DNA of 64,000 bases from a virus: positions 1-64,000 of the IMG/VR virus record IMGVR_UViG_3300043410_001300. One strand, given 5' to 3'. The position numbers and the translations under genes are program-made. The notes under the pieces are model-generated. The model ran no database searches. It saw only the letters and a list, made by a program, of their open reading frames with translations, and was not told the DNA's origin. Positions within the stretch are counted from its first letter, which is position 1, and each line of letters opens with the position of its first letter. Shown here piece by piece: positions 33,801 through 61,854 of the stretch.

Positions 33801-34504
33801 GTTCTGTTATTACATTGAGTAAGCCATTAGTAAGCGGCACAGTTCTATCCTCGGGTGACATCTACACATTCTACAATCTACCTACAACCACTCAGTTCCA
33901 GTTTATTACCACTGGAAATGATAATATCAAGAAGGTAAAAGTAGGCAGTAAGGTACTATTCAAGCATGGTACAGATACGGTTACCACCGCCACTGGAAGT
34001 ACCGGTAAGTACATAACAGTAGCATCTTCCGCTAATATTACTGCCGGACAGTACGTAAGTGGAGCAAATATTGATACATTGAGAGTGATGTCTGTAAATG
34101 GTAGTACCATTGAATTAAATGCTAACTCCGCCGGAACGATATCTGGTAGTTACTCATTCTTCAATGCGGTGTCGATTGTTGAATTAAATAGTAATAATGA
34201 ACCGCAGGAAGTGGTTGAGTTCACTGTAACTAATAGCCACAAGAGCACAGATGCTACTTGGACAATCGAAATCGATAAGGAACCAGCAGTGCGAGTAGGT
34301 GATGTCGCAGTCATGAAATATCACGACTTTGATATCATAACCAGTCAACAAGTTGGCAATACATGGGTGATTACTACCACTGAAAATCCAAATATTGCTA
34401 CTGGCACTAACGCTTTGGCGTACATGACTTATGCTAAGACGCTGCCAATGCAGTTCGACGAGGACAGTATGGTTGCTACTTTCTTGAATAAGCAGATTAG
34501 ATAA
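15866..34504 (+). CDS. Giant virion protein (6212 aa), baseplate wedge/adhesin-like
   Basis: One uninterrupted frame of 18.6 kb. The N-terminus (LDFLPEIFKTETNDQFLSST, YSWDSFADIDKLVNYAQYYW) and a conserved block near residues 3180-3280 (YLPWLNKTSLIDVKHTIRQL, EVKPYHVYIKDF) are hallmarks of large structural proteins encoded after gp6 in aquatic T4-like phages, where gp7 lies. Modules I can see: FG-GAP-like propeller repeats (around residues 2317, 2496 and 2602); four CBM5/12-like carbohydrate-binding motifs with the W..Y..G..V.Y.G..Y pattern (about 1630, 3718, 4945 and 5011); at least six repeats of a beta module with a GMxVxFxGT-type strand (about 350, 2986, 3491, 4011, 4098 and 4228); and one YKIVSLGTTDWNTVTG module (about 4523). 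Separate gp7, gp8 and gp10 genes are not recognisable nearby, so several wedge functions may be fused here (inference). Confidence 0.75.
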   Translation: MVNQVRTLDFLPEIFKTETNDQFLSSTLDVLTKQPNMTRVQGYIGNKYGYAINAGDNYITEPTATRSNYQLDPAVVFLKEDTQSATDFIDYPSIIAALSNAGAVTDNHNKLFSNKFYSWDSFADIDKLVNYAQYYWLPLGPDAIQISQEITIDDILDKTSYTAPNGLEFVNGLKVNFGGIVHPENYKGVDYYVEGVGTSITLVPANELLCTEVTGGGIYTPWDNDPFDTVDWSISLYVPIQPDYIVMSRSSRERNAWSRGNRWFHQGVLDAHIKYNGVVTNNQYNTQTRAQRPIVEFQGNMSLYNSGTSFAAIVDFIDTRTKDALSLVAGQEHFIVSTDVNRTSNRVSTDGIVVNDTTNLVEGMKVTFSAITGTLPSPLSSATTYEIRSIDNVLSAITISSPSTTVNGSVITPNVIVVTPGAYDMKVSGISEIGLLNDTTVVFANDDDVNVRKTVYKVTSVEAGAGQKKIIALTPLPNVTVETEGQLYIAAGPGDYLGQAWRFSTEVDGIIRPAGEQGWIQSQKKIAINQSPMFDMFDSNDVSFSDKSFYMNSTFKGTKLFGYTIGTGTNDSILGFATTYSSPANTGDFLFTVHMNSDQFTYTNASTGATITKMISDGYAHHRLTTTSTVKRTGWVEAVAPSVQYQVFIFDVTDLNKDGLLCDVAMSSEAQTVWSPVKIYKNGEFVDSSYYTTTVDTVAGTTLIKFKTTLTVGDNVSVQLISEQVSKTAYYQIPSNLQSNPFNTQISSIAAGDLKNYYASIFGNAPRAAGLVFGQNNLGNLGDLAKYGNTIIQNSASLLLPGVFLRKSDYDLQTALQFNADEYMDYKHTVIQLASSGDYSVYQTPASILDDIIYQISSSKSESDSFYWSDMIPSGSPFKVNTYNFGATVSFATFSTSRVYDFASANYHSLVVYQTETVDNKTITTQLVRDIDYFVSTTEPSVTIKRTLTTGSTITVKEYNQTWGSYIPNTPTKLGLFAATVPTVVLDTTYTQPTYFIVGHDGSYTRLYGTYENNQLQDFRDIVLLEFETRIYNNLKITDASPVSYTDLMPGQWRKTGYTWEDILPAYTKNFLGWVGKNKLGDYRKQVFSSNNKFTFNYNKTTNKLSSTQKNPVLLKQGNWRGIYRWFYDTCNPAAAPWEMLGITSKPQWWDSRYGAAPYTSGNALMWQDIADGRVWNNGSPYIDNARIRPELLSVLPVDINGDLVDPLERIVDNYDSLTFERGWVAGDSGPTETAYLRSSTWPFDLMKLLSAFKPASFYNLLVDRDLYKYSTELGQHLFNGRYHLDPTQLTIYGSGTAKHSYINWVVDYINQTGTDGQASVATTLKNIDVRLTYRLAGFSDKQYLRFLTENTAPSATSNSLLIPDDSYSVLLYDNVPSDQVTYSSVIIQKTERGYTVWGNSLTKPYFSTVAPKTGPYQKLTFGTTTVQLSTVYEAGSNVSIAYGTEFYTVQGTSEFLRNYGRWLTERGIMFENMIDDSQVNWDSMIGEFISWAQQSWEVGSIISLNPNAKEFKVYKAGLIVQPLTLHKENFILNQNLITLKSQNMAVLRKNEEFTVRVLSDGDTVAYTNLNLSTVEHAIVFDNKTVFGDTIYNTDSGLRQTRLIMQGKKTADWSGYVNADGFILNQADIKEWNNSTKYPKGQIVLYKNKYWFAKELIQPTDTFDYTLWTESSYDNIKQGLLPNPSTIAYESSQLYDIQQANLEQDEDLLAFGLIGFRPREYMSLAALTDVTQVNIYKNMISSKGTNKSALAFKGATPLQGDLDYDVRENWAIKNSTFGSVLNSNFVEVQLYQNLLTGNPAIIGFGDAMSSTTDFSTVAFNSGVQQKVSIGDALLKGKKKVKGDKDYIYQNDLINYGRNPANANFLPTYSLTYVEERGLPSAGYVNIDDVDYYAYNLTDLNTTATNISELYRGDVVWVANYNSKWDVFTPVSIGTTLSTVRNNLDNTVTLIFAQPHGLLEDDPFVIVDFDDRVNGYYTVKSVSNLTSLVIDLSLAKTVVKLTGTGITFKLYSVRVSQASDLSAYSEAVPFSEFSTRLSWIDEDTNGNWSVLGAAPVYEKQKGTFDVDENGTDVNPGIAGYGKSVAYTSAIGELVVANAGLYRNGALLEPISGLTAVVASGTTAICSTPSTLYVLDFSTTIHTKIPIDGINTNTGVMTLSKDTNWLYVATGTVLTTYFKVGTTYTKVASTTVDSEITSLATAKDGSKVIVGAGNQSLDVNGETYSEAGVVYVYDRASRSYLQNVTDLTKKEFPVPASRDLVKAQVYVNASLKEEGAGDTMYKIAGKKIIFNTAPPVGTTVYINYGELTLQQTITSEKKHIGANFGRSVATNRYGAEVIIGAPYELATVNEVKNVEGAVYRFTNSGQRYGTVTATVTDAAVGILYIDGFEVPYNTEDTTNDAAIVALRYTVSKRNRVAYQINLIEPTNVIATYGDTPVISLYNKTGTAAVPNDQIDIVGGDCIVGSTTQSGAKSLENIGIMPYTRTQVLNDKNLDTNSQFGWTVAVNQDDSDRDSIIVSARSVDTFSETTFDFTNDLNAMNDCIFDNGATTFIDKFPFTGGVYQYDYLPSTTESIDAPGKYTFGQYCIIPTTDAERNKQAAAPHYGAALSFTDGVITIGSPDWYKNGTGRVTTFKINSKSTKTSSWYIDKQPLTQVDVARLSTISIYDTETNKTLDRLDYIDPAQGKMLSAVETNIDVISLVDPAVYTSGQIWGANKVGTTWLDTSNIRLMNYNQPDVVYNSRYFGRAFPGSTADIYTWISSSVLPVDYSGSGYTTNFNDYTSATIIDKSSNTLATEYYFWVKGYEEVPQGKTLSPTVLSQYILNPANSGVPFLAAITTNVVALYNAQDSIQSHASALHLGYSVGNNSDRGHQDWSLIQDGNDESFLSGMPLTIDGAPSGMYLKYVTSFMGMELNGLAVPDMELPKLVRYGTSFRPRQSMFVDRELALKNYVQYANSIMSKYTITETRGLYLLNQSSYITGSVVAESSTNIYITTEAGKTVTGLYIGQPVVFKGNAYGGLEANKTYYIVSTDTDKYGQYIRVSVTLGGAVISLTEYTGSMSVKLFDTTDYWSYADWWATGYSASTKVTLEVQTYTDLLTIGQGELVAGDFGNVTLSDGLVARVVKNGQGVNEYYVYSSTTSSWTRIGLQKGTISIDTAVYTTVAPIPSMEIYYIIRWIAEQLYVNELLIENNQSLIMMFNLIQSEGQQQQNYLPWLNKTSLIDVKHTIRQLLPYKQYKRDTRELVEGYLKEVKPYHVYIKDFSFTYDGTEYYNGSFTDFDLPAQYDTTTGKFLSPQLAYTSTASADQYSPTNTIWTDAAYSSWFKNYGLTISNSQVSAILVTGLTDDLSNTGTSIVVNESSVLPVNGIIKIGNETIKYTILDRSTNTISGLTRGLNFQQPTDYAAGTSVYLLPEAVMVMDSGRGYTSLPAITAHYDTTEYPYAPREQATFVAGLTETKLSSVTLTNSGSGYPVLPEIRVASSSITGTITSSQVDIVLHQIYLAGHQFVTGDCVIVSNIEDDSKTVGLKNNRYYYVNSVDEDHIALYNSYRDALVGYTTVEKSLAYESISVTKTITISQSFEVDALPFRTGDRIKLILASAPSTPLYYYVENLGVTPASVVSGKPLIALYSTYSKAMTGLTSDRVSVSGVGSISNLPDVDADRVAFTSTDKVDGVVAVTARVKLFTDNLPTREMRIGMKFDRVSYLSYAKDWNQETSLFGDSGWDTAAWGKGIYYSKNQLAVYNGTLYRANRNLNTTALADTFNLAYWDEVDSSDLSLTAADRIAGFYKPNANMPGFTMDDMSQLMTGVTSPWPTVKDPAFADTKTYAFVSGQVDLSNHTVQLRDTKPEVVTYVELIDSTSNNIINLTALPAVTDTSNVGMTLKSVDNVRIGDRIKFDGSLIGNILNSDGTDSKATVKDKSYVIKSINAARDIISISNTMINGTIGNAVTFTDASGYMTVLPVEYSTSNLYANGNITLNTTSFVENNSTVRFSNTSVTINATRTYSSTNSATPNQILVDTTKNIATGMTITFSGTSFGNISNSTTYFVKQVIDTNHITVSETLLGEAHTLTANTGALTAKVIGTFGKYNVQVASNTYSSNNFISVGSTDGLYAGMPVSFTGTMNGGLSNISTVGNNYYSVNSVSTSTLFDIKYTSNNAVVTLANGNKKMLATFIADGIINDSDYYVTSVNANNNVTLSSTVGGGTVKLLSATGVMSADISSFYLTSITDTKELIVNSSDAVNSLAIGDSIYFTGTSVGNVAVGNSTTNLYTVKSLNPATNKITVAEIDNLSQANGGHMTMWRVATPVKTAFATSDMVKVVYTYPTNRTTDYYFVHSVANTQITLHDDATAAVDGSNPVYVPDGAIGTVIKPQTIVALTDPIGYDSELNPRGFKPGTALEMTFEQSSNPTNFGLVNYKTYWVGIIDSVHAAVYESKDDAENDTNRIPLLNQVGGQFLYGITYDSIIKSPRDNSDTQVDIVGASFTSGYSPEEMVAGIVTDGINFTVTTRPGSTWEATGAVTVVNSSNLTANKKYKIVSLGTTDWNTVTGIPGVSYKAGDEIIARTSDSGTGTVTAVEYGHTGFNMVRISAVNPKTVYYPDGTKIYTDSTKSTLVNGIQFKDTVVNPVTIIVYGNDNYGQTRLTPTTKYLTGDYTVDWINQVVTFTAAGLAKGYVSYDIVVYEFGNGSHLVRSSSKYYPLKKVQDNKDSATKTYHSEIHLDVPYSQVELPTSDNFGLSTMVFAGSTTSDTTPLTYLTDITNPEYGSTDPLNFDYEDHYTIEPQRPYDPVNDPYNPAKIVFSKLYSNETDYVSFVLTTNVIGMFVVSTTDMNSTYIIDGVECVKYVAPLNVTTFNSLKLLVSLNDSQLTPKSIEYTNNFVTIMIDASKISVNNNIKVSYDSNGAGAPMTQWINAAQATAITFIEPVNTVLKSVSVTGTGGELSFQSTTVNYGTAWDNTKEYKEGAIVRYSGARYSAVSSSIGDPNWHTTVGTWVPSEWTLADIKVVISGTLNTVASFPVWDDSSAYAIGTVVNYGGALYSANVDITAPADPLIPNTWNAADWTLVQMATITGYTGTSTTYDLTASNNSTTITLSGVTTTSGRTDGLTFTVVASTAVTRIPYTLTGFLGDDNYSSIVVNKIRADGFFEGHSTIEMKVNDVVTITGLYTPDPQNPPIAGYHSPKKYYIAETDGYSIFKLTSYFGGVPDVAVTAGPTTGLTFSLQNNLVVEIDGLRVDGPSATQTYRKIIQVGKDELKLSYPTPVYGINEFDINYFTVLVNGSTIPQVNPSNTAQVNWSLNYDFAKGQFYQFDADFINAVFNPVIPATDAQIASGAWGFFDDGTPFDNQSSFNVVFNPTYLSLKTGDIVTLSYQVPGQIPPDTFTITVNDNKLGGTINIITSAIPSVNSKVAITSFGRTTNQSLRTQRVTDATINVIPRISTLVNTTTGSPFKGLVIDGTNPPLLTLDAAHSLTTKSPLQQVIIHGTAIRSMDGRRFYTSDTNYKTGATVQDKSRQVYLYNIDNPTSSTGWDTTAIAGPFSLTGSSYLQLLNIANTAESTIAINPLVINQPAGFKMTNVDRLYVSIIYGPNSGSMIGHREYVPTSKLSYVQYEDVSTLLIRQAVAPGDEVLITSMVPTASPNEGKFRINNTWNIVSGEPNSTTLHRENQVSRTYVTNVYSDTDGTITSFRVNNPHALVKKAVFSGTDSVLGSRTLDIDSVTGLYYCTVDNVNNKQVANIVVTAPGTTTPITSEFSFVGVSNATTVKILFNTRPVDASGIYLTKVDVTISAGNTVMINGEQLRYTNINLDYSSPSYGIITGLFRGLNTTGDKEIKVYDIVQSILDENISDTGNLNKTWYSNIIETTLPSANSVAGVHTFPYVATISSDGTSTLPEIGMVKSGDTIAFKTQTVKVTTGGNITVTDYISSNVTANVIYTNASSEEYVYATYYGNYSSTYQTMELVSTAGITIGMYITGNGVAADTTVTQIFGSVITLSKPLVSGTVLSSGDIYTFYNLPTTTQFQFITTGNDNIKKVKVGSKVLFKHGTDTVTTATGSTGKYITVASSANITAGQYVSGANIDTLRVMSVNGSTIELNANSAGTISGSYSFFNAVSIVELNSNNEPQEVVEFTVTNSHKSTDATWTIEIDKEPAVRVGDVAVMKYHDFDIITSQQVGNTWVITTTENPNIATGTNALAYMTYAKTLPMQFDEDSMVATFLNKQIR

Positions 34505-45946: not shown

Positions 45947-46420
45947 ATGAAACTAATATCCCATCGTGGCAACTTAACAGGCCCCCAACCACATCTAGAA
46001 AATACCCAAGAACAAATTCTCTACGCTATCTCACAAGGATTCGATGTAGAGATAGACGTATGGTATATCGATGGTAGCTTATTCTTAGGCCATGATGGCC
46101 CCGAACACCCTATCGCACCAGAATTCCTCGAACGAGATGAACTATGGTGTCATGCTAAAAATTTAGGAGCACTCCAATACCTCTTAAATAATAACATACA
46201 TTGTTTCTGGCATGAAGGTGACCAGCGTACACTTACTAGCCGTGGCTATATATGGACCTATCCTGGTAAAGACACTGTGGCTGAAAGTGTCATAGTAGAA
46301 TTAACTTCTACACTACCAACTATCACAGAACAAATAACAGGAGTATGTGGAGATTATGTCGCAAACTGGCGAAAAGAAGATAGCGTTATGCTTCTCGGGG
46401 CAACCAAGAACATGGCGTAA
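45947..46420 (+). CDS. GDPD-like phosphodiesterase, short form
   Basis: 157 residues. The glycerophosphodiester phosphodiesterase/PI-PLC-like active-site pattern is visible: SHRGN (H6, R7), ENT (E18, N19), VEID (E35, D37) and LGHD (H49). Full GDPDs are about 240 residues; this short version matches a phage/bacterial subfamily near sugar genes. It would hydrolyse a phosphodiester in a glycan or lipid. The last 65 bases overlap the next gene in another frame; both frames look coding there. Confidence 0.6.
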   Translation: MKLISHRGNLTGPQPHLENTQEQILYAISQGFDVEIDVWYIDGSLFLGHDGPEHPIAPEFLERDELWCHAKNLGALQYLLNNNIHCFWHEGDQRTLTSRGYIWTYPGKDTVAESVIVELTSTLPTITEQITGVCGDYVANWRKEDSVMLLGATKNMA

Positions 46421-49401: not shown

Positions 49402-50093
49402 GGGTATTATACGCTAACGGAGATAGTTGGACCTTCGGCCAAGAGATACCGTCCACGCACCCTACCTCCCAATGTCACACCGATCAATACTACGGAAGCT
49501 GGCCGTTCAAATTAGCCTCCCTACTGGGCGCGGCGTGTGTCAATGAGGGCGCTGGCGCTGGCAGTAATGATAGAATATTCAGGAAGACTACTGAGTATAT
49601 CAATGAATGGGTGGCAACCTGCCGCAACCCCCAGGACCTCACCATTGTAGTAGGCTGGACCACACCTGAACGAGCAGAACTAGAGGCCAATGGCGTATAT
49701 ACTAGAATAAACATTAATAATATCATTACTAAGTATGGCGAGGATGCCGACTACGAGCGCCAGCAATTAGAAGAGTATAGAGACAGTTACTACCGGGTCT
49801 TAGACCTCGAGATGGCAGCGGTCAGACAGATTAGATATATGATGACACTTCGTACACTAACCGCCGCCCTAGGTATTCGTTACTGGGACTTTCAAGCAAT
49901 CGGTGCCCACCCACACCAGCTCCAAGCACTAGCTAACCGACACTATGGTCATACAATGGACAATTACTATGGGACTACATGGCACAATTACTGTCAACTC
50001 CACGGCCAACCACTACACACTCATGGCCATCCCACCACCGAAGCCCACCATCATTGGGCGTCCTTACTCCACGACTGGATCAGCCATGAATAA
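49398..50093 (+). CDS. SGNH-hydrolase-like protein 3
   Basis: 231 residues: NGDSWTFGQEIP (D9, S10), GAGSNDRIFRKT, VVGWTTPERAELE, and a His-rich end HTHGHPTTEAHHHW. It closely follows the plan of the first copy (GDSWTYG, SNDRIVR, VVGLTSPERKDF), so copies 1 and 3 are the nearer pair. Start overlaps the previous stop as ATGA. An acyl-esterase or acyltransferase role on sugars is likely for the family but unproven here. Confidence 0.6.
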   Translation: MRVLYANGDSWTFGQEIPSTHPTSQCHTDQYYGSWPFKLASLLGAACVNEGAGAGSNDRIFRKTTEYINEWVATCRNPQDLTIVVGWTTPERAELEANGVYTRININNIITKYGEDADYERQQLEEYRDSYYRVLDLEMAAVRQIRYMMTLRTLTAALGIRYWDFQAIGAHPHQLQALANRHYGHTMDNYYGTTWHNYCQLHGQPLHTHGHPTTEAHHHWASLLHDWISHE

Positions 50094-50856
50094 AACCGTC
50101 AATATCATCATGGCTCTGGGTGGTGAGGGATCCAGATTTGCCTCCCAGGGCTACGAACTACCTAAGTATCTACTAGCATATGGCGGCTCTACTATGTTAT
50201 ATCATTCCTTAGCATCCCTACGCATATCAGGTAATGTATACTTTATCGCTAGACAGGAGCACTTAGACCGTTACCCACAACTCCAACCACTGTTAGATGC
50301 CCTAGGTACCACCATCGTTGCACCACATCTGACCAGAGGAGCAGCAGAAACCCTACTCCTAGCCGAACCACATATACAGGACCTATCCTTACCCATGATT
50401 AGTATCAATTGTGACCAGATGATCAAGTGGAATCCGCAACCATTCTTAGATAAACTGGCCACTAATCCACACACCTCGTACATTGTTACCTATAGGGACA
50501 CTTCACCTAAGTGTTCGTATGTCCTATGTGAAACTCCTGCATGCAATAGTTTAGATAGTACCAAGGTCATTGAGGTGCGTGAGAAACAAGTAATCTCCAC
50601 GCATGCCACCGTTGGAATCTATCATTGGAGTAGTACTCAACTGTTCTTTAGGTGTGCCCAGGAGTATATTAGCACCACACCGCTCCAACAATGCGATGGT
50701 GGAGAGTATTATGTAGCACCGGTTTACAATGTGGCCATTGGCCAGGGGCAATCTGTAGAGCGATATAGCATAGAAGACAACGGTGGACAATTCTGGCCAG
50801 TAGGCACACCCCAAGATTTGAACAGTTATATACTAGAGACAGGAGATTTTATATGA
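50086..50856 (+). CDS. Sugar-1-phosphate nucleotidyltransferase-like protein
   Basis: 256 residues from the ATG at 50086, overlapping the previous stop (ATGAATAA). The start of the fold reads NIIMALGGEGSRFASQGYEL followed by PKYLL, the G-x-G-x-R...PK nucleotide-binding signature. SINCDQMIKW carries the catalytic Asp strand and GGEYYVAPVYN the sugar-binding end. It would make an NDP-sugar for the transferases upstream. The following cupin overlaps by four bases, and cupin plus nucleotidyltransferase is a common pairing in sugar pathways. Confidence 0.68.
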   Translation: MNKTVNIIMALGGEGSRFASQGYELPKYLLAYGGSTMLYHSLASLRISGNVYFIARQEHLDRYPQLQPLLDALGTTIVAPHLTRGAAETLLLAEPHIQDLSLPMISINCDQMIKWNPQPFLDKLATNPHTSYIVTYRDTSPKCSYVLCETPACNSLDSTKVIEVREKQVISTHATVGIYHWSSTQLFFRCAQEYISTTPLQQCDGGEYYVAPVYNVAIGQGQSVERYSIEDNGGQFWPVGTPQDLNSYILETGDFI

Positions 50857-51185
50857 AACACCACCGCTTAGAAGATTTCTACCGTGGTTGGATAGTGGGT
50901 AAGTTCGAGCCATCATTGCTCCAAGCTGATTTCGAAGTAGGCATTGCCCATCACCACGCCGGCGAACCACACGGAGACCACTTTCATAAACTGTCCACCG
51001 AGATTAACGTGGTGATTAGTGGTACCGTCAAGATTAACGATAGGGTGTTTAACAGTGGCGACATATTCGTCCTAGAGCCCTGGGAAGTGTCACAAGCCGA
51101 GTTTATCACTGATTGCGTGATTGTGATAGTGCGTGATCGGAGTATTCCAGGTGATAAATTCGAATTCAGCATTCGTGGCGAATAA
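50853..51185 (+). CDS. Cupin-fold protein
   Basis: 110 residues. The metal-binding cupin motif 1 is visible as HHHAGEPHGDHFHK...E...G (H and E ligands) and motif 2 as GDIFVLEPWEVSQAEF. Small cupins of this sort are sugar isomerases, epimerase-like enzymes or regulators. It ends the overlapping gene block. The nearest following gene, 234 bases on, is the RuBisCO-like protein, so a functional link to either side is possible. Confidence 0.68.
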   Translation: MKHHRLEDFYRGWIVGKFEPSLLQADFEVGIAHHHAGEPHGDHFHKLSTEINVVISGTVKINDRVFNSGDIFVLEPWEVSQAEFITDCVIVIVRDRSIPGDKFEFSIRGE

Positions 51186-51341: not shown

Positions 51342-51350
51342 AATAAATAT
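51342..51350 (+). promoter_or_regulatory. Late-promoter-like motif AATAAATAT
   Basis: TAAATA-type motif 69 bases before the RuBisCO-like gene and just after the terminator-like repeat. It could start the 51420-54827 operon. Confidence 0.4.
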
Positions 51351-51419: not shown

Positions 51420-52544
51420 ATGAATATTTACCTACCTACCGTACCAGCCGGTCATATTGCTGTTAAATTTGGGATTACTTCCTCTACTACCTTAGATGAG
51501 GCTGCTCGTGGCATTGCTATTGGGCAGTCTATTGGTAATCCTGGTGCTCGTGTGGAGCGTTGGGAGACTAGTCATCTAATTGATACCCATTGTGCTAAGA
51601 TTATTGGCAGTCGAGAGGACTTATTATCTAGACACGAGGGTGATGTTGTTATTGCTTTCCCCCTTATTAATATTAACTGGAGGGAGGATGGCCTATCTCA
51701 GTTATTATGTACTATAATGGGTGGTCAGTGTGATATTGATATTATAGAACGGTGCTGGGTAGTAGATATTGATCTCGATTTAGTACCTAGATTAACTCCA
51801 CGCTATGGTTTGAGTGGCTTGCGTGAGTTAACTGGTCGTTATGATCGTCCATTATTGGGTTGTATTATTAAGCCTAAGATTGGTTTATCGGCCGGTGATT
51901 ATGGTACCATTGTGGAGGAAATGGTTAGAGGTGGTGCTGATATTATTAAAGAGGATGAAATACTAGCTAATCCGGTATTTTGTAGTATGGAGGAGCGCTT
52001 ATCTATTGTTAGAGAGATTATTGGTACTAGAAAGATTGTTTACTTGGCTACTATTAATGCGGATGCAGATAGATTATTAGACAAGGCTAGAATGGTAGCT
52101 AGGAGTGGAATTCGTGGAGTACATTTAAATGTATGGAGCGGATTAGGTAGTTATGGGGCTGTTCGTAGATTAGGTCTAGATATTGCGCTGCATTATCAAA
52201 AGTCTGGTGATCGGGCGTGGAGTGATAGGAATAATAAGTATAGAATTACCTGGTGGGTACTATGTAAATTAGCTGCCTGGAGCGGCGTAGATACTATTCA
52301 TGCTGGTATGTGGGGTGGTTACTTATCAGATGACCCTGTGGAATTGGCGGAGATTATGCGGATGTTGACCGGTTATAATGTAGTGCCGGCATTGTCGTGT
52401 GGTATGAATGCCGAATTAATTCCCAAGGTGACAGATAGATTTGGTGTAGATTATATGGCCAATGTAGGAGCTGCTTGTCATTCGCATCCTCTTGGCGTGG
52501 AGGCAGGAGTTAGAGAATTACGCAGGGCTATCGATGGTAGTTAA
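51420..52544 (+). CDS. RuBisCO-like protein (form IV type)
   Basis: 374 residues with the RuBisCO large-subunit plan: a small N-terminal alpha/beta domain (1-145, ending YDRPLLG) and a TIM barrel. Aligned by eye, K175 and K177 of spinach correspond to K151 and K153 (IIKPKIG). The carbamylated K201 with D203 and E204 corresponds to K177, D179 and E180 (GGADIIKEDE). H294 is H258, H327 is H294 and S379 is S326. R295 is Tyr (Y259) and the loop-6 K334 is Tyr (Y301), so CO2 fixation is unlikely. Enolase or isomerase chemistry on a sugar phosphate, as in RuBisCO-like proteins, is the better guess. It is followed by a kinase with an 11-base overlap. Codons are visibly more T-rich than upstream. Confidence 0.82.
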   Translation: MNIYLPTVPAGHIAVKFGITSSTTLDEAARGIAIGQSIGNPGARVERWETSHLIDTHCAKIIGSREDLLSRHEGDVVIAFPLININWREDGLSQLLCTIMGGQCDIDIIERCWVVDIDLDLVPRLTPRYGLSGLRELTGRYDRPLLGCIIKPKIGLSAGDYGTIVEEMVRGGADIIKEDEILANPVFCSMEERLSIVREIIGTRKIVYLATINADADRLLDKARMVARSGIRGVHLNVWSGLGSYGAVRRLGLDIALHYQKSGDRAWSDRNNKYRITWWVLCKLAAWSGVDTIHAGMWGGYLSDDPVELAEIMRMLTGYNVVPALSCGMNAELIPKVTDRFGVDYMANVGAACHSHPLGVEAGVRELRRAIDGS

Positions 52545-53262
52545 ATTATGCGGACATAGTGGCGCTGAAGTAGAATTAATAGATGGTAGGGTCCATAAAA
52601 GCGGTCGCGGAGTTATTCGTAATTACGCCAGAATGACTTCCCTAGGTAATTTAATACCACAACCCCGCATTATTGATTATAGCGACAGCCTTGTCCTAGA
52701 ATATATCGCGGGCGATAATATTGCTGATTGGCTAGGTAATAATCAACCACATCAATTAATTAAATTTATTCAGAGTAATATTGATATTCTGGGTGAAGTA
52801 ATTATCGATCCATATAAGGATTATTTGCCGGTGTATGAGGCTAGATTGAATTCTGCCTTATATTTACCTACCACTATTGGAAATATTATTGATGATCTAC
52901 CTAGATATCTACCACAAACCCAATATCATGGTGATTTTACATTTGATAATATTATTGCTGGTAGTAGTGGATTTGTCTTAATCGACGCAGTAGACACTGA
53001 CCTAGATAATATCTGGTTTGATTTAGCTAAATTGCGACAGGATGTAGATTGTGGATGGTTTGTGCGTAATCGTGGTGGAGTCACTGATGATCTTGCCATT
53101 AAATTAAGATTGATTAGCGGTGAATTATCTAGGAAATATCGACATTATTCTAATAGGAGCATGGCAATATTAGCGCTAGGCAGAGTATGGAACTATTCTA
53201 CACCCGAGGAGCAAGAGTGGATAAGTACTAAGATGGATATGTTATGGAGGACACCATGTTGA
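52534..53262 (+). CDS. Small-molecule kinase (APH/choline-kinase-like fold)
   Basis: 242 residues from the ATG at 52534, which overlaps the end of the RuBisCO-like gene. The kinase catalytic loop is YHGDFTFDNI (H132, D134, N139), followed by LIDAVDTD (D151) for metal binding. The N-terminal lobe is short, with LVLEYIAG as the hinge. Relatives phosphorylate sugars, choline, aminoglycosides or methylthioribose (MTR). At 242 residues it is smaller than MTR kinase (about 400). Coupling suggests it makes, or uses, the substrate of the RuBisCO-like protein. Confidence 0.7.
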   Translation: MVVKLCGHSGAEVELIDGRVHKSGRGVIRNYARMTSLGNLIPQPRIIDYSDSLVLEYIAGDNIADWLGNNQPHQLIKFIQSNIDILGEVIIDPYKDYLPVYEARLNSALYLPTTIGNIIDDLPRYLPQTQYHGDFTFDNIIAGSSGFVLIDAVDTDLDNIWFDLAKLRQDVDCGWFVRNRGGVTDDLAIKLRLISGELSRKYRHYSNRSMAILALGRVWNYSTPEEQEWISTKMDMLWRTPC

Positions 53263-53363: not shown

Positions 53364-54827
53364 ATGAATTATGTAGGAATTAGCTGTGGCTATCATGACG
53401 CGGCACTAACTGTTATAGGCAGTACTGGTAATATATTATTCGCTGGACACGCAGAGCGATACGGTGATAATAAACATACGCCTAATTTAAATATGGGTAT
53501 TATTGATGATGCCCGTAAGTATATTACTGATGAGATAGAAGTACATTATTACGAGCGTCCGCTGGTTAAATATATGCGTAGATTATGGGCAGGTGAGCGT
53601 CCAGTATTATCTAGTATGAGTGCTAAAAATATTATAGGTGATATATTAATAGCAGAATTAGGCGTTGACCGAGGGTGTAAAATACATACTCATAATCATC
53701 ATCTCGCTCATGCGGCGGCGGGGTTTCAGACCTCGCCATATGATAACGCCACTGTTGTTGTTATTGATGCTATCGGTGAGTTTGAGACTATTACTATATG
53801 GAAGGCCAAATATGTCGAAGGTAAAGCAAAATATAAAAAACTTTATACACAAAATTACCCAAATTCCATCGGACTCTTTTATACTGGAATTACTCAGCGC
53901 GTTGGCCTACGTCCATTAGATGAAGAGTATATTTTAATGGGCATGGCAGCGTATGGCAAACCAATATATGTAGAGGAGATGAGAGCTAAATTGGATGAGA
54001 ATTTACATATTGGTGTAGGTGATGATTTCTTACCAGATGCCGATCATTATGATTTAGCCGCTAGTGCTCAGGTATTAGTGGAAGAGTTAATCATGGATAT
54101 TATTCGTAAGGCCAAGCAATTAGGCACTAGTAGTAATCTGGTATATGGCGGCGGCGTAGCTCTTAATTGTTTAGCAAATAGACGGTTAGGTGAATATTAC
54201 AAAAATGTATGGATACTACCTAACCCTGGTGATGCGGGTAGTAGTTTAGGTGCGGCCGCATTAGGCTATGGCGGTCCGATTAAATTCGATAATGCTTATC
54301 TTGGTCATAATATCCCAGGCGAATATCCAGTCAGTCGATTAATCGATGAGTTAATTACTAATAAGATTGTTGGTGTGGCTAGCGGCAGAGCAGAGTTTGG
54401 ACCACGAGCACTGGGTAATAGATCATTATTAGCTGACCCTAGAGGTCCTGAGATTAAAGAACTAGTGAATAATATTAAACGACGACAGCAATTCAGGCCA
54501 TTTGCGCCAGTTATTCTAGAAGAATTAGCTGATAGTTATTTTGATATGTCGGGCGATGGCGTTGATAGTAGATATATGCAGCGAGTGGTTCGTTGTATAC
54601 ATCCCGAATTATTCCCTGCCATTATTCATAGAGACGGCACCAGCAGAGTACAAACAGTACCTAATGATGGTAGTGGAATAAGGCGATTACTTGAAGCATG
54701 GTACAAGGAGACAGGCTGTCCTATGTTATTAAATACATCGCTGAATATCAGGGGTGAGCCCATGGTTAATAATCGTCAGGACGCTGATAGATTTGAGGAG
54801 CTATATGACATAAAGGTGTGTAGTTAA
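53364..54827 (+). CDS. NodU/CmcH-type carbamoyltransferase
   Basis: 487 residues, full length. The N-terminal Kae1-like domain has GISCGYHDAALTV, HNHHLAHAAAGF (metal-binding His), VVVIDAIGE and GGGVALNCLAN. The C-terminal YrdC-like domain has GRAEFGPRALGNRSLLADPR, FRPFAPVILEE and LNTSLNIRGEP. Enzymes of this type make carbamoyl adenylate from carbamoyl phosphate and ATP and transfer carbamoyl to a hydroxyl on a sugar or other small molecule. Its stop shares a palindromic TTAA with the convergent gene. The acceptor is probably made by neighbouring genes. Confidence 0.9.
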   Translation: MNYVGISCGYHDAALTVIGSTGNILFAGHAERYGDNKHTPNLNMGIIDDARKYITDEIEVHYYERPLVKYMRRLWAGERPVLSSMSAKNIIGDILIAELGVDRGCKIHTHNHHLAHAAAGFQTSPYDNATVVVIDAIGEFETITIWKAKYVEGKAKYKKLYTQNYPNSIGLFYTGITQRVGLRPLDEEYILMGMAAYGKPIYVEEMRAKLDENLHIGVGDDFLPDADHYDLAASAQVLVEELIMDIIRKAKQLGTSSNLVYGGGVALNCLANRRLGEYYKNVWILPNPGDAGSSLGAAALGYGGPIKFDNAYLGHNIPGEYPVSRLIDELITNKIVGVASGRAEFGPRALGNRSLLADPRGPEIKELVNNIKRRQQFRPFAPVILEELADSYFDMSGDGVDSRYMQRVVRCIHPELFPAIIHRDGTSRVQTVPNDGSGIRRLLEAWYKETGCPMLLNTSLNIRGEPMVNNRQDADRFEELYDIKVCS

Positions 54828-57143: not shown

Positions 57144-57699
57144 TTGGGCGGAATGCTTGTAATGCTCTATTGTACTCATTGATGTTTAAATTCCAGATAG
57201 TTTGTGGAGTGTAGTAATACTCTTCCTCTCGCACAAACTCAACAATACCTTGCTTCGATAATAACTCCAGGGCTCGGTGAGTTCGAGACATCTTACCACT
57301 AGCATCATGACTACCGTGTGACGTGGTGATGTATAACTCATCATAACCATTCGCAACACCCCATCCAATTTGCATAGGCAACAGAATACTAAACGGCACA
57401 CTGTTCATATGTGTCTTACTCATACCAGGAATCAATCTCTGATATCTAGGTAATGTGGCACTACGAAACAAACATCGTAGTATTCTGTGTTCGTCGTCAT
57501 AGCTATGACATCCACTGATACTAGCAATCTCATCATTGACTATTAGCGCCCAGTACTGAGGGTCACTAGGTAGGTCATGACCATCAATTAGCTTCAATGC
57601 TTCCATAGTGCCATTATTAGTGTATCCCACACCAGCACACTCTCTATTGAAAGCATCGAGTAGTTTATTGTGATTTTGGGATATTTTTACAATATTCAT
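57121..57699 (-). CDS. GNAT-like acyltransferase (tentative)
   Basis: 192 residues. A helix-strand start (HNKLLDAFNRECA), a strand pair around YWALIVNDEIASISGC, and YDELYITTS, which could be the beta-4/beta-5 splay of a GNAT fold. No exact R/Q-x-x-G-x-G/A acetyl-CoA loop is seen, so this is a fold guess. The start overlaps the radical SAM stop by 35 bases; convergent with the gene ending at 57143. If real it would act with the adenylating enzyme upstream. Confidence 0.4.
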   Translation of the reverse strand: MNIVKISQNHNKLLDAFNRECAGVGYTNNGTMEALKLIDGHDLPSDPQYWALIVNDEIASISGCHSYDDEHRILRCLFRSATLPRYQRLIPGMSKTHMNSVPFSILLPMQIGWGVANGYDELYITTSHGSHDASGKMSRTHRALELLSKQGIVEFVREEEYYYTPQTIWNLNINEYNRALQAFRPIRQSIGL

Positions 57700-58984
57700 A
57701 AAAATCCTTTAGTTCAGGGAACGTCTCTACTAGATTTAATCCTCTTAGTGAATCAAAGTTACTGAACCAATCATAGAATTCTCTTTGTAAATTAATGTCT
57801 GGAATATTGTCTTCTAGCTGTCTACGTATGCTTTTTAAGAACTTTATGTATACAGGATGTTGCACTGGGCTATTCTCTAACACGATAATAGCATCGTTTA
57901 CGTATCTACTGAATTCTGAAGGTAATACGAACACACTATGACAAGCAGGACTCTTAATCATATGAGGATTCATCGAGACTTTTACTGAATATCTTTCTTC
58001 GAGTTCGACTATCCAGTTGGAGAACTTACTTAGTTTTGGAATACTTAGTACATTAATAGTTGGATTAAATGATAATGTCATATTATCATTGATAGATGCT
58101 ATCTTAAATAACTCCTCTACATTATTATTGAATCTATCCCAATCTAATCCATTTCTTATGTATTCTGCTTGTATATCAGTAGATTCCATACTTATAGTAA
58201 TACAAAACTTAAATCTATCAGTTAGCCTAGGCAATAATTCAATTAATTTATTGAAGTATTTTTCCCTTGCGTTTAAGTTAGTAACGACTGCCACACCGAG
58301 TTTACTATCACATTCTCTTACTTCTGATAATTTTTCTAACATGTCATAAAACTCTGGTATAATCAATGGCTCACCACCAGAAATTCTGATATCAGTGAGA
58401 CTTCTCCCTTCATCCGAACTGATCCACTCCCACAACAGAGATGTGAACTCGTTGGTTGGTAAAGCAGTTACTTCTCGATATTCTTCTATTGATATGGTTT
58501 TATTTTTTAACGCCTCACTGGCCCATTGAGTGCTGTATCTAGGAGAGCAATACATACATTTTAAATCACACGTAGCATCTAATGTCACTTCTAGTACCAC
58601 TGATGATTTGCTTACTAGTAAATCGCTATTAATGTCAATATCTTCGCTCCAGTTATCGAGTAGGTATTTTTTAGTTTTAGCATATCTATCATTTATTTTT
58701 GAGTGAGATTGGCGAGGACTCTCAATATTTTTATCTTCTAAATCCCAACAGAATTTACAATCACTATGGCGAATGCCTTTGAGCATCTCCAATCGTCTTT
58801 CTTTATAATAATCATTATTTGTTAAACAGCTGGACCCATATTTTTCTATATCTTCCGGTGTAAATTTGTAAAAAGAAGTGAGACAACACATCTTTCCTTC
58901 TCCTCTACTCATATTGATATATGGGAAATCCCATCTTTGGGGACAAATAGCGTTTTCTACCTCAATCGGTATTACTTTTTTCAT
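57665..58984 (-). CDS. Radical SAM protein (twitch/SPASM-like), copy 2
   Basis: 439 residues from the ATG at 58984, which overlaps the adenylating-enzyme stop by one base (TAATG). The cluster motif is CDLKCMYC (C139, C143, C146) and the SAM motif ISGGEPLII (203-206). The N-terminus repeats the copy-1 signature MLKGIRHSDCKFCWDLED (C76, C79) and has a further CC at 33-34. The two copies share this plan though separated by 13 kb. Partner genes differ: here it follows an AMP-forming ligase. Substrate unknown; peptide or small molecule. Confidence 0.78.
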   Translation of the reverse strand: MKKVIPIEVENAICPQRWDFPYINMSRGEGKMCCLTSFYKFTPEDIEKYGSSCLTNNDYYKERRLEMLKGIRHSDCKFCWDLEDKNIESPRQSHSKINDRYAKTKKYLLDNWSEDIDINSDLLVSKSSVVLEVTLDATCDLKCMYCSPRYSTQWASEALKNKTISIEEYREVTALPTNEFTSLLWEWISSDEGRSLTDIRISGGEPLIIPEFYDMLEKLSEVRECDSKLGVAVVTNLNAREKYFNKLIELLPRLTDRFKFCITISMESTDIQAEYIRNGLDWDRFNNNVEELFKIASINDNMTLSFNPTINVLSIPKLSKFSNWIVELEERYSVKVSMNPHMIKSPACHSVFVLPSEFSRYVNDAIIVLENSPVQHPVYIKFLKSIRRQLEDNIPDINLQREFYDWFSNFDSLRGLNLVETFPELKDFYEYCKNIPKSQ

Positions 58985-59886
58985 TAGTATGCTTTCGGGA
59001 TAATTTGACAACCAGCGCTGACGCGACCTCTGTATATATACCACTCATTTCTCATGTACACACAATCGCCAGTTAGTAGAGAACCATCTTGTACACAGTC
59101 ACCTAGTAATGCCAATTGTGAGCCAATCAAAGCAGTACGACACCATGCTTTAGTGCCAAGTGGTACACCATACTTAAAGATAGACAAGTCATCGCCTAGT
59201 TTGAAGCGATGATTAATGATAATCGGCCCTGCCTCAGTAAGTCCGTAGTTGAGAATGAAATCACAGTCAAGATGGGTAAAATATCTAACATCGTCGGCAC
59301 TAATACAATCACTGCCACACATTACGGTTTTTAGAGTAGGAGCACCCTTACGCTCAACCTTCCTTAACACCTCAATCATACGAGGCACCACGTGAGTTAT
59401 AGTGGCGCCAATCTCATTGATACGATTGAAGAATGTAAACGCATTAAATGGTTCAACGACCACATGGGCACCTGCTAATAAGGCAGGTAGTGACTGAGCA
59501 TTGATGCCACCAGTATGACGCATGGAGCATACAGTATACACTACATCTTTCGCAGTGATGCCATTACATTCGATAGCATTGTCAGCATTTGATAGCAACA
59601 TGACTTCTGTCAGAACAATTGGTTTACGAGTGCCGCTGCTGCCACTTGACCACAGTACTAGAGAGAATTCATCTACAGAATTGTCAAACGGTACGATATC
59701 ATTCACATTTAACGGCGGAACGACCACGGTAGTCTTCATGCGACTAGCTCGTAATATATCAATTAACACACTATCGCCGCCACTATCCGATTCCACAAGC
59801 GCCAGCAACTCTCCATACGACAGATTGTTGAGTGCGGAACGATGAGCATATTTTTCAGCCACATCTTTGAACCTATTAAATAACAT
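58984..59886 (-). CDS. Acyl-adenylate-forming enzyme, short form lacking the C-terminal lid
   Basis: 300 residues. Motifs of the AMP-binding/acyl-CoA ligase superfamily: LVLWSSGSSGTRKP (P-loop A3, about 77-89), ILNYGLTEAGP (A5, 211-221), LLTGDCV (A7, 271-277) and WYIYRGR (A8, 282-288). Family members are about 500 residues; the mobile C-terminal domain is missing or cut short, so thioester transfer may not occur and adenylation may be the sole job. It shares a 41-base divergent gap with the QueC-like gene. A GTAAATATC motif lies three bases before the ATG. Confidence 0.78.
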   Translation of the reverse strand: MLFNRFKDVAEKYAHRSALNNLSYGELLALVESDSGGDSVLIDILRASRMKTTVVVPPLNVNDIVPFDNSVDEFSLVLWSSGSSGTRKPIVLTEVMLLSNADNAIECNGITAKDVVYTVCSMRHTGGINAQSLPALLAGAHVVVEPFNAFTFFNRINEIGATITHVVPRMIEVLRKVERKGAPTLKTVMCGSDCISADDVRYFTHLDCDFILNYGLTEAGPIIINHRFKLGDDLSIFKYGVPLGTKAWCRTALIGSQLALLGDCVQDGSLLTGDCVYMRNEWYIYRGRVSAGCQIIPKAY

Positions 59887-59927: not shown

Positions 59928-60578
59928 ATGAAGACGATAACTGTAGCAGGAATTAATATAGATATTCACGATGGGCCAATTGCTATTAGCGCAAGTGGTG
60001 GAGCAGATAGTTCGGTATTACTATACTTACTTTTGAAATATGCCACTGATACCGTGCATGTACTTTCATGCGCGGACGATCAATTACCGAATAGAGTCGC
60101 TCCAAAAATATGCACAGATGTGATACAGACATGTATTGCTCTTACGGGTAATCGAAATGTCAAACAACACACATTCTTTATTGAACAAAAAACTTATGAG
60201 ACTTGGTTATCTCCAGTAAGAAAACTTACTAATGAAGTAGGGGCGAATATACTGTATACCGGTATAACTTTATTCCCGGATGATGAAGTTTTAGAAACAT
60301 TCTCACAGTACGGTGATGATTATCCTCGTCTCAAAGAAGCACAGAGTTATAGAGATCCTAAGAAAGCACATCAATTTTATTTCAACAATAATAAATTTTA
60401 TACACCATTAAGTAATGCTAATAAAAAGAAAATATCTGAAATGTATGAGGAACTTGACATACTTGATACTCTTTATCCAGTGACTAGAAGTTGCGAAAGT
60501 TCTACATTAACGGAAGGACATTGCGGTAAATGCTGGTGGTGTGACGAGAGAATGTGGGCATTTGGAAGATTGGAATGA
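59928..60578 (+). CDS. QueC-like PP-loop ATPase, copy 1
   Basis: 216 residues. The PP-loop is SASGGADSSVLLYLL (SGGADSS, 23-29). The C-terminus has four Cys in the QueC zinc pattern: C189, C199, C202 and C205 (SCES...GHCGKCWWC), then DERMWAF. QueC turns a carboxylate into a nitrile through an adenylate. QueD, QueE and FolE are not seen in this window, so preQ0 synthesis is not supported. The start lies 41 bases from the divergent adenylating enzyme. The stop overlaps the next start (ATGA). Confidence 0.72.
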   Translation: MKTITVAGINIDIHDGPIAISASGGADSSVLLYLLLKYATDTVHVLSCADDQLPNRVAPKICTDVIQTCIALTGNRNVKQHTFFIEQKTYETWLSPVRKLTNEVGANILYTGITLFPDDEVLETFSQYGDDYPRLKEAQSYRDPKKAHQFYFNNNKFYTPLSNANKKKISEMYEELDILDTLYPVTRSCESSTLTEGHCGKCWWCDERMWAFGRLE

Positions 60579-61252
60579 TGGATATTTTCTTTATAAGCTA
60601 TCGAGAAGCAAATGCGGAAACTAACTGGCAACGATTATTAGCCAAGCATTCACATGCCAAGCGCATTCACGGTATCACTGGTATCGACCGTATACACTTA
60701 GCATGTAACTCACTAGCGACTACCCCTTTCTTTTGGACAGTGGATGGTGACAACTTGATAGTAGAAGACCTGGAGTACAATGAACCAATCACTACTGATC
60801 TAGTGATGTTTAAAGCATATGATCCACTTATTACAGGTGATACTAGTAGTCTTGGCGCAGTTAAACTATGGCGTAAAGATAGCTTTATCAATACAGATAT
60901 GAGTAAGGGAGACTTTACACTTAATGCCACCCGATCAAAAACCATGAGTGATAGATGTTATTCAGTATCGGCATACAATGCTAGCGAGTTCGATACCTGG
61001 CGCGCCGCATTCCGTCATTGTGTTAAGTTACTTAGTATGATACTCAGAGATAGAAGCAAAGACAACCGAGAGGTGTATCTCGACAGATGGCGTAAGACTG
61101 AGACTAGTACTGGTAAGTATGCTAAATGGGCCTATCAGGGCTACTTAGATGCGATAGAGTTCGTTCACTTATATGATAATAACATGACCGAGCTTAATAA
61201 AATCAATGACTATGATTGGTTAGATAACTACTTCACGGAGCTGCATGGATGA
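60575..61252 (+). CDS. GT-A-like protein with DGDN motif, copy 3
   Basis: 225 residues from the ATG at 60575. It reads MDIFFISYREANAETNWQRL, AKRIHGITGIDRIHLA and FFWTVDGDNLIVEDL (D57, D59), close in plan to the protein at 43586. The DxD is intact, so it should bind a nucleotide sugar. It lies between the two QueC-like genes and is coupled to both by ATGA overlaps. Such an arrangement suggests joint action on one acceptor. Confidence 0.6.
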   Translation: MMDIFFISYREANAETNWQRLLAKHSHAKRIHGITGIDRIHLACNSLATTPFFWTVDGDNLIVEDLEYNEPITTDLVMFKAYDPLITGDTSSLGAVKLWRKDSFINTDMSKGDFTLNATRSKTMSDRCYSVSAYNASEFDTWRAAFRHCVKLLSMILRDRSKDNREVYLDRWRKTETSTGKYAKWAYQGYLDAIEFVHLYDNNMTELNKINDYDWLDNYFTELHG

Positions 61253-61854
61253 TTTACACTAGTGAACTGGATGGCAAGCAAATAGAGATTACTATTGACA
61301 AAAATATCAAGTATGGTATCATGCTTAGTGGTGGTCTAGATAGCGCGGTGTTATTGTATCTACTATACATCAACGGTGCCACGAACATACAACCGTATAC
61401 GATTGATAAAGCAGATGGGTCATCCATGTATGCGAGCCGAGTCGTTGAGCACCTTAACAGAAAGTTTGGTATTAGGTTGCCACTACCTATTCTAGTGGGA
61501 GATCCATCAGTTCATCATAGTCTTCAAAGTAGAACAGCTCTTACTGACATCTTCACCAATTATTCAGTTGATCTATTATTCAACGCTCTTAACAAGAACC
61601 CTGATGAGATGAATGAACTACCAGGCGCACCTAAAAGAGCGACATCAGCGCCTCCCAAGGTAGTATTACCATTCGTTGACTTGTACAAAACACACATCAT
61701 TGAATTGATGTATGAACTAGGACAAGAAGACTTACTGAATGTAACGCACTCTTGTACGGAGCAATCAATAGGCAGATGCGGCGAATGCTGGCAGTGTCAA
61801 GAAAGAGCATGGGCATTCAAGCAATTAAGTAAACAGGACACAGGCACACAATGA
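61249..61854 (+). CDS. QueC-like PP-loop ATPase, copy 2
   Basis: 201 residues. The PP-loop is IMLSGGLDSAVLLYLLY (SGGLDSA, 27-33). The Cys pattern is again conserved: C169, C177, C180 and C183 (SCTEQSIGRCGECWQCQERA), then WAF. It shares the plan of copy 1, but the middle differs (NALNKNPDEMNELPGAPKRA). Two diverged copies in one operon may use different substrates or form a heterodimer. Start overlaps the previous stop by four bases. Confidence 0.72.
   Translation: MIYTSELDGKQIEITIDKNIKYGIMLSGGLDSAVLLYLLYINGATNIQPYTIDKADGSSMYASRVVEHLNRKFGIRLPLPILVGDPSVHHSLQSRTALTDIFTNYSVDLLFNALNKNPDEMNELPGAPKRATSAPPKVVLPFVDLYKTHIIELMYELGQEDLLNVTHSCTEQSIGRCGECWQCQERAWAFKQLSKQDTGTQ

Follow-up and report, generated by a model that had tools for sequence, protein, structure and literature searches.

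A phage-encoded RuBisCO-like protein with a non-carboxylase active site, its conserved gene cassette and a possible role in NDP-sugar biosynthesis

The window analyzed here is a stretch of 64,000 nucleotides (positions 1 to 64,000) of the IMG/VR virus record IMGVR_UViG_3300043410_001300 (64,001 bp). It carries T4-like gp25 and gp6-like baseplate genes as well as an SbcCD/gp46-47 pair, and the phage is T4-like. Its SbcC/gp46-like protein has its best relatives in large phages of Pseudomonas and Agrobacterium. A single ORF of 6,212 amino acids (15866-34504), probably encoding a giant tail or baseplate protein, lies downstream of the gp6-like baseplate gene. The gene in focus encodes a RuBisCO-like protein (RLP) of 374 amino acids, starting with ATG and having an intact reading frame, while the opposite strand is closed by many stops. 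The features of the locus are the following:

45947-46420, plus strand: mini-GDPD-like protein, 157 amino acids, with the motif HRGN...EN...EIDVW...GHD; core partner, 5 kb upstream of the RLP gene
50086-50856, plus strand: nucleotidyltransferase (NTP_transferase; Pfam 2e-07; best PDB match of the family profile 4evw, E 3.5e-36); core partner
50853-51185, plus strand: small cupin, 110 amino acids (family alignment; AF2 pLDDT 94); core partner directly upstream of the RLP gene
51343-51349, plus strand: ATAAATA, late-promoter core of the T4-like type, located 71 bp ahead of the start codon of the RLP gene within the 234-bp gap after the cupin gene
51420-52544, plus strand: RLP, with K177, D179 and E180 as putative Mg/carbamate residues, Y301 at the position of RuBisCO K334, and Q260-K261-S262-G263-D264 at positions 294-298
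52492-53262, plus strand: APH-like small-molecule kinase (Pfam APH 4.4e-4, below cut-off), adjoining the RLP gene but not part of the conserved core
53364-54827, plus strand: carbamoyltransferase (Pfam Carbam_trans_C 3.6e-48), a neighboring biosynthetic gene, not core

The start of the nucleotidyltransferase gene was moved from 49945 to the ATG at 50086 on the basis of an alignment to homologs. Foldseek searches with the cupin model returned general cupins only, all of them moderate matches and phosphomannose isomerase cupins among them, so that no specific function is indicated. The mini-GDPD label is based on the motif and on a weak match of the family profile to the solved GDPD 7e0v (1.5e-4); Pfam gave no match for the window protein. 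At the presumed second-half Glu site of this family (45947-46420 in the window) there is a His (H69-x-K71), where a canonical GDPD would presumably have Glu. The family (approximately 145 amino acids) is widespread, being present in 59 of 80 nucleotidyltransferase-centered viral loci, mostly without an RLP. Further along the same island there are a radical SAM protein, an AMP-binding (ANL) ligase and two PP-loop/QueC-like proteins (57665-59886, 59928-60578, 61249-61854), possibly another biosynthetic cassette.

The ATAAATA motif occurs nine times in the window against 20 copies expected by chance, and seven of the nine lie within the 2,144 intergenic bases. The sites (among them 4467(-), 11675, 12139, 15831, 34508, 37279, 51343 and 56034(-)) fall almost exclusively in gaps directly ahead of genes, several or most of which are structural, and one of them precedes the RLP gene. 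The latter may therefore have its own late promoter, although this rests on the motif only and the AT-richness of intergenic regions was not accounted for. Rfam had no match in the window, and scans for sigma-70 promoters and terminators gave no more than chance.

At the sequence level the affiliation of the protein is clear. The sole Pfam match is RuBisCO_large (PF00016; E 1.6e-34, 120 bits vs. a cut-off of 30.1), and a sequence search of the PDB matched RuBisCOs and RLPs only (98 sequences, best 5e-29). NCBIfam RuBisCO and RLP models also match, every one of them below its own cut-off. Structure prediction, which had been suggested as a check, gave an AF2 model with pLDDT 93 and pTM 0.91 (32 homologs as input), for which Foldseek listed RuBisCO chains from rank 1, the top solved structure being 2d69 (TM 0.87). 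No RuBisCO was found among the BFVD viral structures (best TM 0.42). The fold, an N-terminal domain followed by an alpha/beta barrel, together with the significant homology places the protein in the RuBisCO superfamily, as the original prediction, made from the sequence alone, had proposed.

The residues of the RLP were mapped onto RuBisCO through a multiple alignment of Forms I, II and III, OiaX types, MtnW and others. K151, K153, K177, D179 and E180 correspond to K175, K177, K201, D203 and E204 of RuBisCO; H258, Q260, K261, D264, H294 and Y301 to H292, H294, R295, H298, H327 and K334; and S326, C327, G35, N40, P41 and G102 to S379, G380, E60, T65, W66 and N123. Retained RuBisCO residues are K175, K177, K201, D203, E204, H292, H327, S379, G381 and G403, and the substitutions are E60G, T65N, W66P, N123G, H294Q, R295K, H298D, K334Y and G380C. 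The original prediction had placed the K-E-D-E stretch at the K201 position, with the triad K177/D179/E180 kept, and had assigned Tyr to the position of K334, in agreement with the alignment. It had also assigned Tyr to R295, which was wrong: R295 corresponds to Lys261, and Y259 falls at position 293.

Throughout the 111 aligned members of the RLP clade K175, K177, K201, D203, E204, Q294, S296 and G297 are invariant. S379 is kept and E60, T65, W66, N123, H294 and K334 are replaced in essentially all of them, G60, N65, P66, Y334 and C380 being present in every member having that column filled. At position 295 there are 103 members with Lys, seven with Ser and one with Arg, and at position 327 there are 98 with His and 12 with Gln. 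The carboxylase residues E60, N123, H294, R295 and K334 are G, G, Q, K and Y in essentially all sequences, which does not meet the criterion for Forms I-III and bears out the non-carboxylase site that had been anticipated. The protein is a Form IV-type RuBisCO homolog lacking essential carboxylase residues, and its site, as far as the alignment can tell, is that of a non-carboxylase in which the Mg/carbamate centre is intact; both the absence of carboxylase activity and the actual use of metal and carbamate are inferred. In RuBisCO, R295, H327 and S379 form the P2 phosphate site, and T65, W66 and K334 provide the P1 side chains. The P2 site is largely kept in the RLP (R295K in 103/111, H327 in 98/111, and S379) and the P1 side chains are lost (T65N, W66P, K334Y), the reverse of the pattern in MtnW. 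This combination suggests that the substrate phosphate would be located at the far end of the sugar, an inference from the residue pattern only.

The RLP is not a lone oddity. A single-protein query of IMG/VR retrieved 26 relatives and a family-alignment query 348, and viral rbcL-like genes as such are already known (PMC12607003), so that the original remark that RuBisCO-family genes are rarely reported in phages has to be qualified. In the INPHARED phages there was no RLP relative by tblastn at E 0.01 and no DNA near-identical to the cassette. Cellular copies, all with 39-49% identity, were found in single-cell genomes of SAR11/Pelagibacteraceae as well as in MAGs of Crocinitomicaceae, Sphingobacteriales, Patescibacteria, nanoarchaea, Elusimicrobia and Verrucomicrobiia, where mis-binning of contigs is possible. 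SAR11 copies such as L040 and L041 lie among chromosomal genes (ThyX, LepA and HflK, as judged by eye). In the SAR11 loci L036-L041 the RLP gene is flanked by two divergent nucleotidyltransferases, one of them without the usual GSRF motif, and there is no cupin nearby.

Phylogenetic placement, also among the checks originally suggested, was carried out with two trees, one of them under a mixture model; IV-Photo, IV-AMC, IV-Aful and IV-GOS sequences were left out. In both, the viral and cellular RLPs form one clade (100/100) outside Forms I-III, OiaX and OiaX-like proteins, MtnW and the 3qfw type. Forms I-III group together at 99/98 and 99/97 without the RLP clade, whose sister relationship to the OiaX types has weak support (88/78). 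Since viral and cellular members are intermixed within the clade, transfer of the gene between cells and viruses is probable. The dN/dS ratios of approximately 0.05-0.10 in four close pairs of relatives indicate that the lineage is under purifying selection. With its own residue signature and genomic context the RLP represents a distinct Form IV clade, identity with IV-GOS not being excluded.

The RLP had been described as embedded in a coupled biosynthetic operon, and a conserved cassette was indeed found. Clustering of the neighbors in 45 loci revealed three constant companions of the RLP, namely the nucleotidyltransferase, the cupin (approximately 107-120 amino acids) and the mini-GDPD-like protein (approximately 142-165 amino acids). 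Among 79 RLP-centered viral loci the commonest order is nucleotidyltransferase, cupin, RLP and GDPD on a single strand (32 loci), and after removal of near-copies the nucleotidyltransferase is present in 56/56, the cupin in 46/56 and the mini-GDPD in 45/56 loci. The median gap between cupin and RLP is 19 bp, and the two are within 300 bp of each other in 58 of the 65 loci having a cupin. Linkage was also seen in 77 of 80 cupin loci, a figure biased upward because these were the best matches to the RLP-linked cupin. In one locus (L042) a full-length GDPD adjoins the RLP, and in L001, the nearest relative, a fructosamine-kinase-like gene occupies the position equivalent to that of the APH-like kinase. 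The wider neighborhood contains glycan-related transferases, NDP-sugar epimerases, methyltransferases and GDSL/SGNH-type proteins. Islands of a similar kind in pelagimyophages are regarded as a host recognition cluster tied to O-chain modification (PMC7029224). Single loci offer further observations: in the closest viral relative a 3-dehydroquinate-synthase-like sugar-phosphate cyclase, which may point to a cyclitol, lies two genes after the RLP (L001:8928-9989), and one phage has a fusion of the cupin with a C-methyltransferase-like protein (L021:2017-3480).

When the mini-GDPD and the cupin were used as tblastn queries, matches were obtained in cyanophages, in a collection without any RLP match. 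In Bellamy and SynMITS9220M01 the same nucleotidyltransferase family (profile 224-226 bits) is fused to an RpiB/LacAB domain (PF02502, 3.9e-32 and 4.1e-33), with the same cupin (121-123 bits) as the next gene; a HAD protein and a PfkB-like kinase precede the fusion. Two more loci, L198 and L268 from IMG/VR, likewise combine this fusion with the cupin. A dedicated scan identified 30 viral loci with the nucleotidyltransferase-RpiB fusion, and among these the cupin was directly downstream in 28, HAD was present in 29 and PfkB in all 30; no RLP was found in any of them, no RpiB in any of the 79 RLP loci, and neither HAD nor PfkB in RLP-centered loci. More generally, the fusions of the cassette nucleotidyltransferase vary by phage, the added domain being an N-terminal HAD_2, a C-terminal PNKP-like HAD or RpiB (L011, L146, L147, L143, L144, L198, L268 and other long nucleotidyltransferase ORFs). 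The logic of the ADP-heptose pathway is isomerase, kinase, HAD phosphatase and nucleotidyltransferase. The equivalent position of RpiB means that the RLP occupies the place of a sugar-phosphate isomerase. However, as the RLP cassettes are devoid of the kinase and the phosphatase, RLP and RpiB cannot be regarded as simple one-to-one replacements, and the pathways, which are not identical, may differ.

Taken together, the reading we favor, with moderate confidence, is that the RLP, a distinct Form IV-type lineage, acts in an NDP-sugar pathway serving glycan decoration, either as a sugar-phosphate isomerase or as a closely related enolizing enzyme, for instance an epimerase. The enolization or isomerization originally proposed is thus the best-supported option, given RpiB in the sister cassettes, the kept far-end and the altered near-end phosphate site. 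What has been established is the fold, the residues, the clade, the cassette and the equivalent place of RpiB; metal and carbamate use, isomerase chemistry, the position of the substrate phosphate and the glycan target are inferred, and there are no enzymatic activity data. In the proposed mechanism K177 would be carbamylated and bind Mg2+ together with D179 and E180, and the P2-like site (K261, H294 and S326) would hold the substrate, a sugar phosphate carrying its phosphate group at the far end (C5/C6). At the metal-bound centre a proton would be abstracted to give an enediolate, and K151 or a different active-site group would serve as the acid that returns a proton to another carbon. No CO2 would be added, since the RLP lacks the loop-6 lysine and the side chains of the near-end phosphate site. 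The product would pass to the cupin, which may be another isomerase or epimerase, the nucleotidyltransferase would make an NDP-activated unusual sugar, and the glycosyltransferases of the island would attach it to the host surface or the phage. A precedent is the RLP of R. rubrum, a 5-methylthioribulose-1-P isomerase working with a cupin (PMC4958253). Facts that do not fit easily are Gln instead of H327 in 12/111 members, Ser instead of R295 in 7/111, and the unexplained role of the mini-GDPD.

The main rival to isomerization is decarboxylation or another enolate reaction, in which case the RLP would act on C-C bonds, as a decarboxylase, a carboxylase or an aldol-type enzyme, and supply the glycan with a branched or shortened sugar. 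The Mg/carbamate centre and K175 are intact, OiaX demonstrates that the RLP scaffold is able to decarboxylate, and the OiaX types are the weakly supported sister group. However, K334, which positions CO2 in RuBisCO, is Tyr in every member with the column filled, and RpiB holds the equivalent place in the sister cassettes, so that we consider such an enzyme rather unlikely. A carboxylase AMG was ruled out, the carboxylase residues being missing. Within the isomerase reading itself there is a narrower version, possible but doubtful, in which a 1,3-type isomerase or epimerase yields a ketose-type phosphate that is activated directly at a non-anomeric position. It would account for the RLP cassettes doing without the kinase and HAD phosphatase that accompany nearly every nucleotidyltransferase-RpiB fusion, and the R. 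rubrum RLP is an isomerase of such a type (PMC4958253). Nevertheless, there is no direct evidence for the substrate of the nucleotidyltransferase, the solved relatives of which mostly use sugar-1-phosphates.

It is improbable that the RLP is of a known catabolic kind (MtnW enolase, 3qfw/deep-Ykr-type isomerase or OiaX-type decarboxylase) with which the phage scavenges methylthioribose or apiose-type sugars. The fold is shared, there is the weak tree affinity to OiaX types, and RLP plus cupin is the arrangement of the methylthioadenosine shunt of R. rubrum (PMC4958253), but the clade is separate at full support, the cassette lacks salvage genes and has glycan genes as neighbors, and MtnW keeps the near-end and loses the far-end phosphate site. 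The NCBIfam equivalog scores are also far under the cut-offs, 76.8 bits against 513.6 (TIGR03332) and 103.6 against 409 (PRK09549) for MtnW and 92.5 against 700 for OiaX; identity with either was ruled out by these scores and the different clade. A decayed, non-functional gene or an error of assembly can hardly be entertained as an explanation: no supporting evidence was found, and the low dN/dS of the relatives, by which a pseudogene was ruled out, the near-invariant active site in 111 sequences, the 348 viral relatives, the intact frame and the late-promoter-like site of its own all speak against it.

The known roles of RuBisCO relatives lie in carbon fixation, methionine salvage and sugar breakdown. 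Among open-licence papers none was found that links an RLP to NDP-sugar cassettes or reports this RLP lineage with its cassette. We propose, tentatively, a new function in the superfamily. The RLP would be a sugar-phosphate isomerase of the carbamate/Mg type devoted to the synthesis of NDP-sugars, and no RuBisCO relative would have been assigned to glycan building before it; it would be common to SAR11 and aquatic phages, with RpiB as its non-homologous stand-in. If this is true, an abundant viral and SAR11 lineage with a near-invariant site of its own puts the RuBisCO scaffold to use in making surface sugars. Competition between aquatic bacteria of very high abundance and their phages seems to turn on hypervariable surface-glycan islands, and for a part of these islands a testable function would then be available. 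Matches to rbcL in viral metagenomes should not be taken as carbon fixation.

Compared with the known systems, the RLP resembles the Form III-like RuBisCO of Pyrococcus horikoshii (2cwx/2d69) in fold (TM 0.87), in sequence (the best PDB match, 5e-29) and in K175, K177, K201, D203, E204, H327 and S379, and differs from it in E60, T65, W66, N123, H294, R295 and K334, which are replaced. With the Form IV MtnW (2,3-diketo-5-methylthiopentyl-1-P enolase; 2zvi, 2oek, 4nas) it shares a non-carboxylase site with carbamate-type Lys/Asp/Glu. The MtnW reference (L138), however, has Lys at position 123 and keeps W66 but not R295 and H327, whereas the RLP has Gly at 123 and the P2-type residues. The deep-Ykr type, to which we assume the solved structure 3qfw belongs, is similar to the proposed RLP role in isomerase chemistry and a cupin in the pathway, but its context is methionine salvage instead of glycan synthesis; in the 3qfw-type group E204 is replaced by His and K177 is absent, and the RLP is not in that group in the tree (each 100/100). 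The described example of the deep-Ykr type is the MTRu-1P isomerase Rru_A1998 of R. rubrum, with a cupin in the same pathway (PMC4958253). OiaX (3-oxo-isoapionate-4-P decarboxylase) and OiaX-like RLPs (3nwr), the possible sister group, keep H294, R295 and K334 and lose K177, unlike the RLP, which also falls outside the OiaX group in the trees. The rbcL-like genes reported in 2025 from landfill and IMG/VR viruses (PMC12607003) are likewise virus-encoded, and their overlap with the RLP clade is not established. New ocean RuBisCO groups were found in 2007 (PMC1821046), and an ocean clade is listed as IV-GOS (PMC10173188). The IV-GOS RLPs are, similarly to the RLP, marine and different from other forms, and could be the same lineage; since they were not in the trees, this cannot be excluded. 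The poorly conserved active-site residues given by Yooseph (2007) are N123, K177, D198, F199, H327 and G404, a list without K334, H294, E60 and T65, which are changed in the RLP. Finally, the RpiB/LacAB sugar-phosphate isomerases, which use no metal, are unrelated to the RLP in fold and chemistry, and yet in the cyanophage cassettes they stand in the same place beside the same nucleotidyltransferase and cupin.
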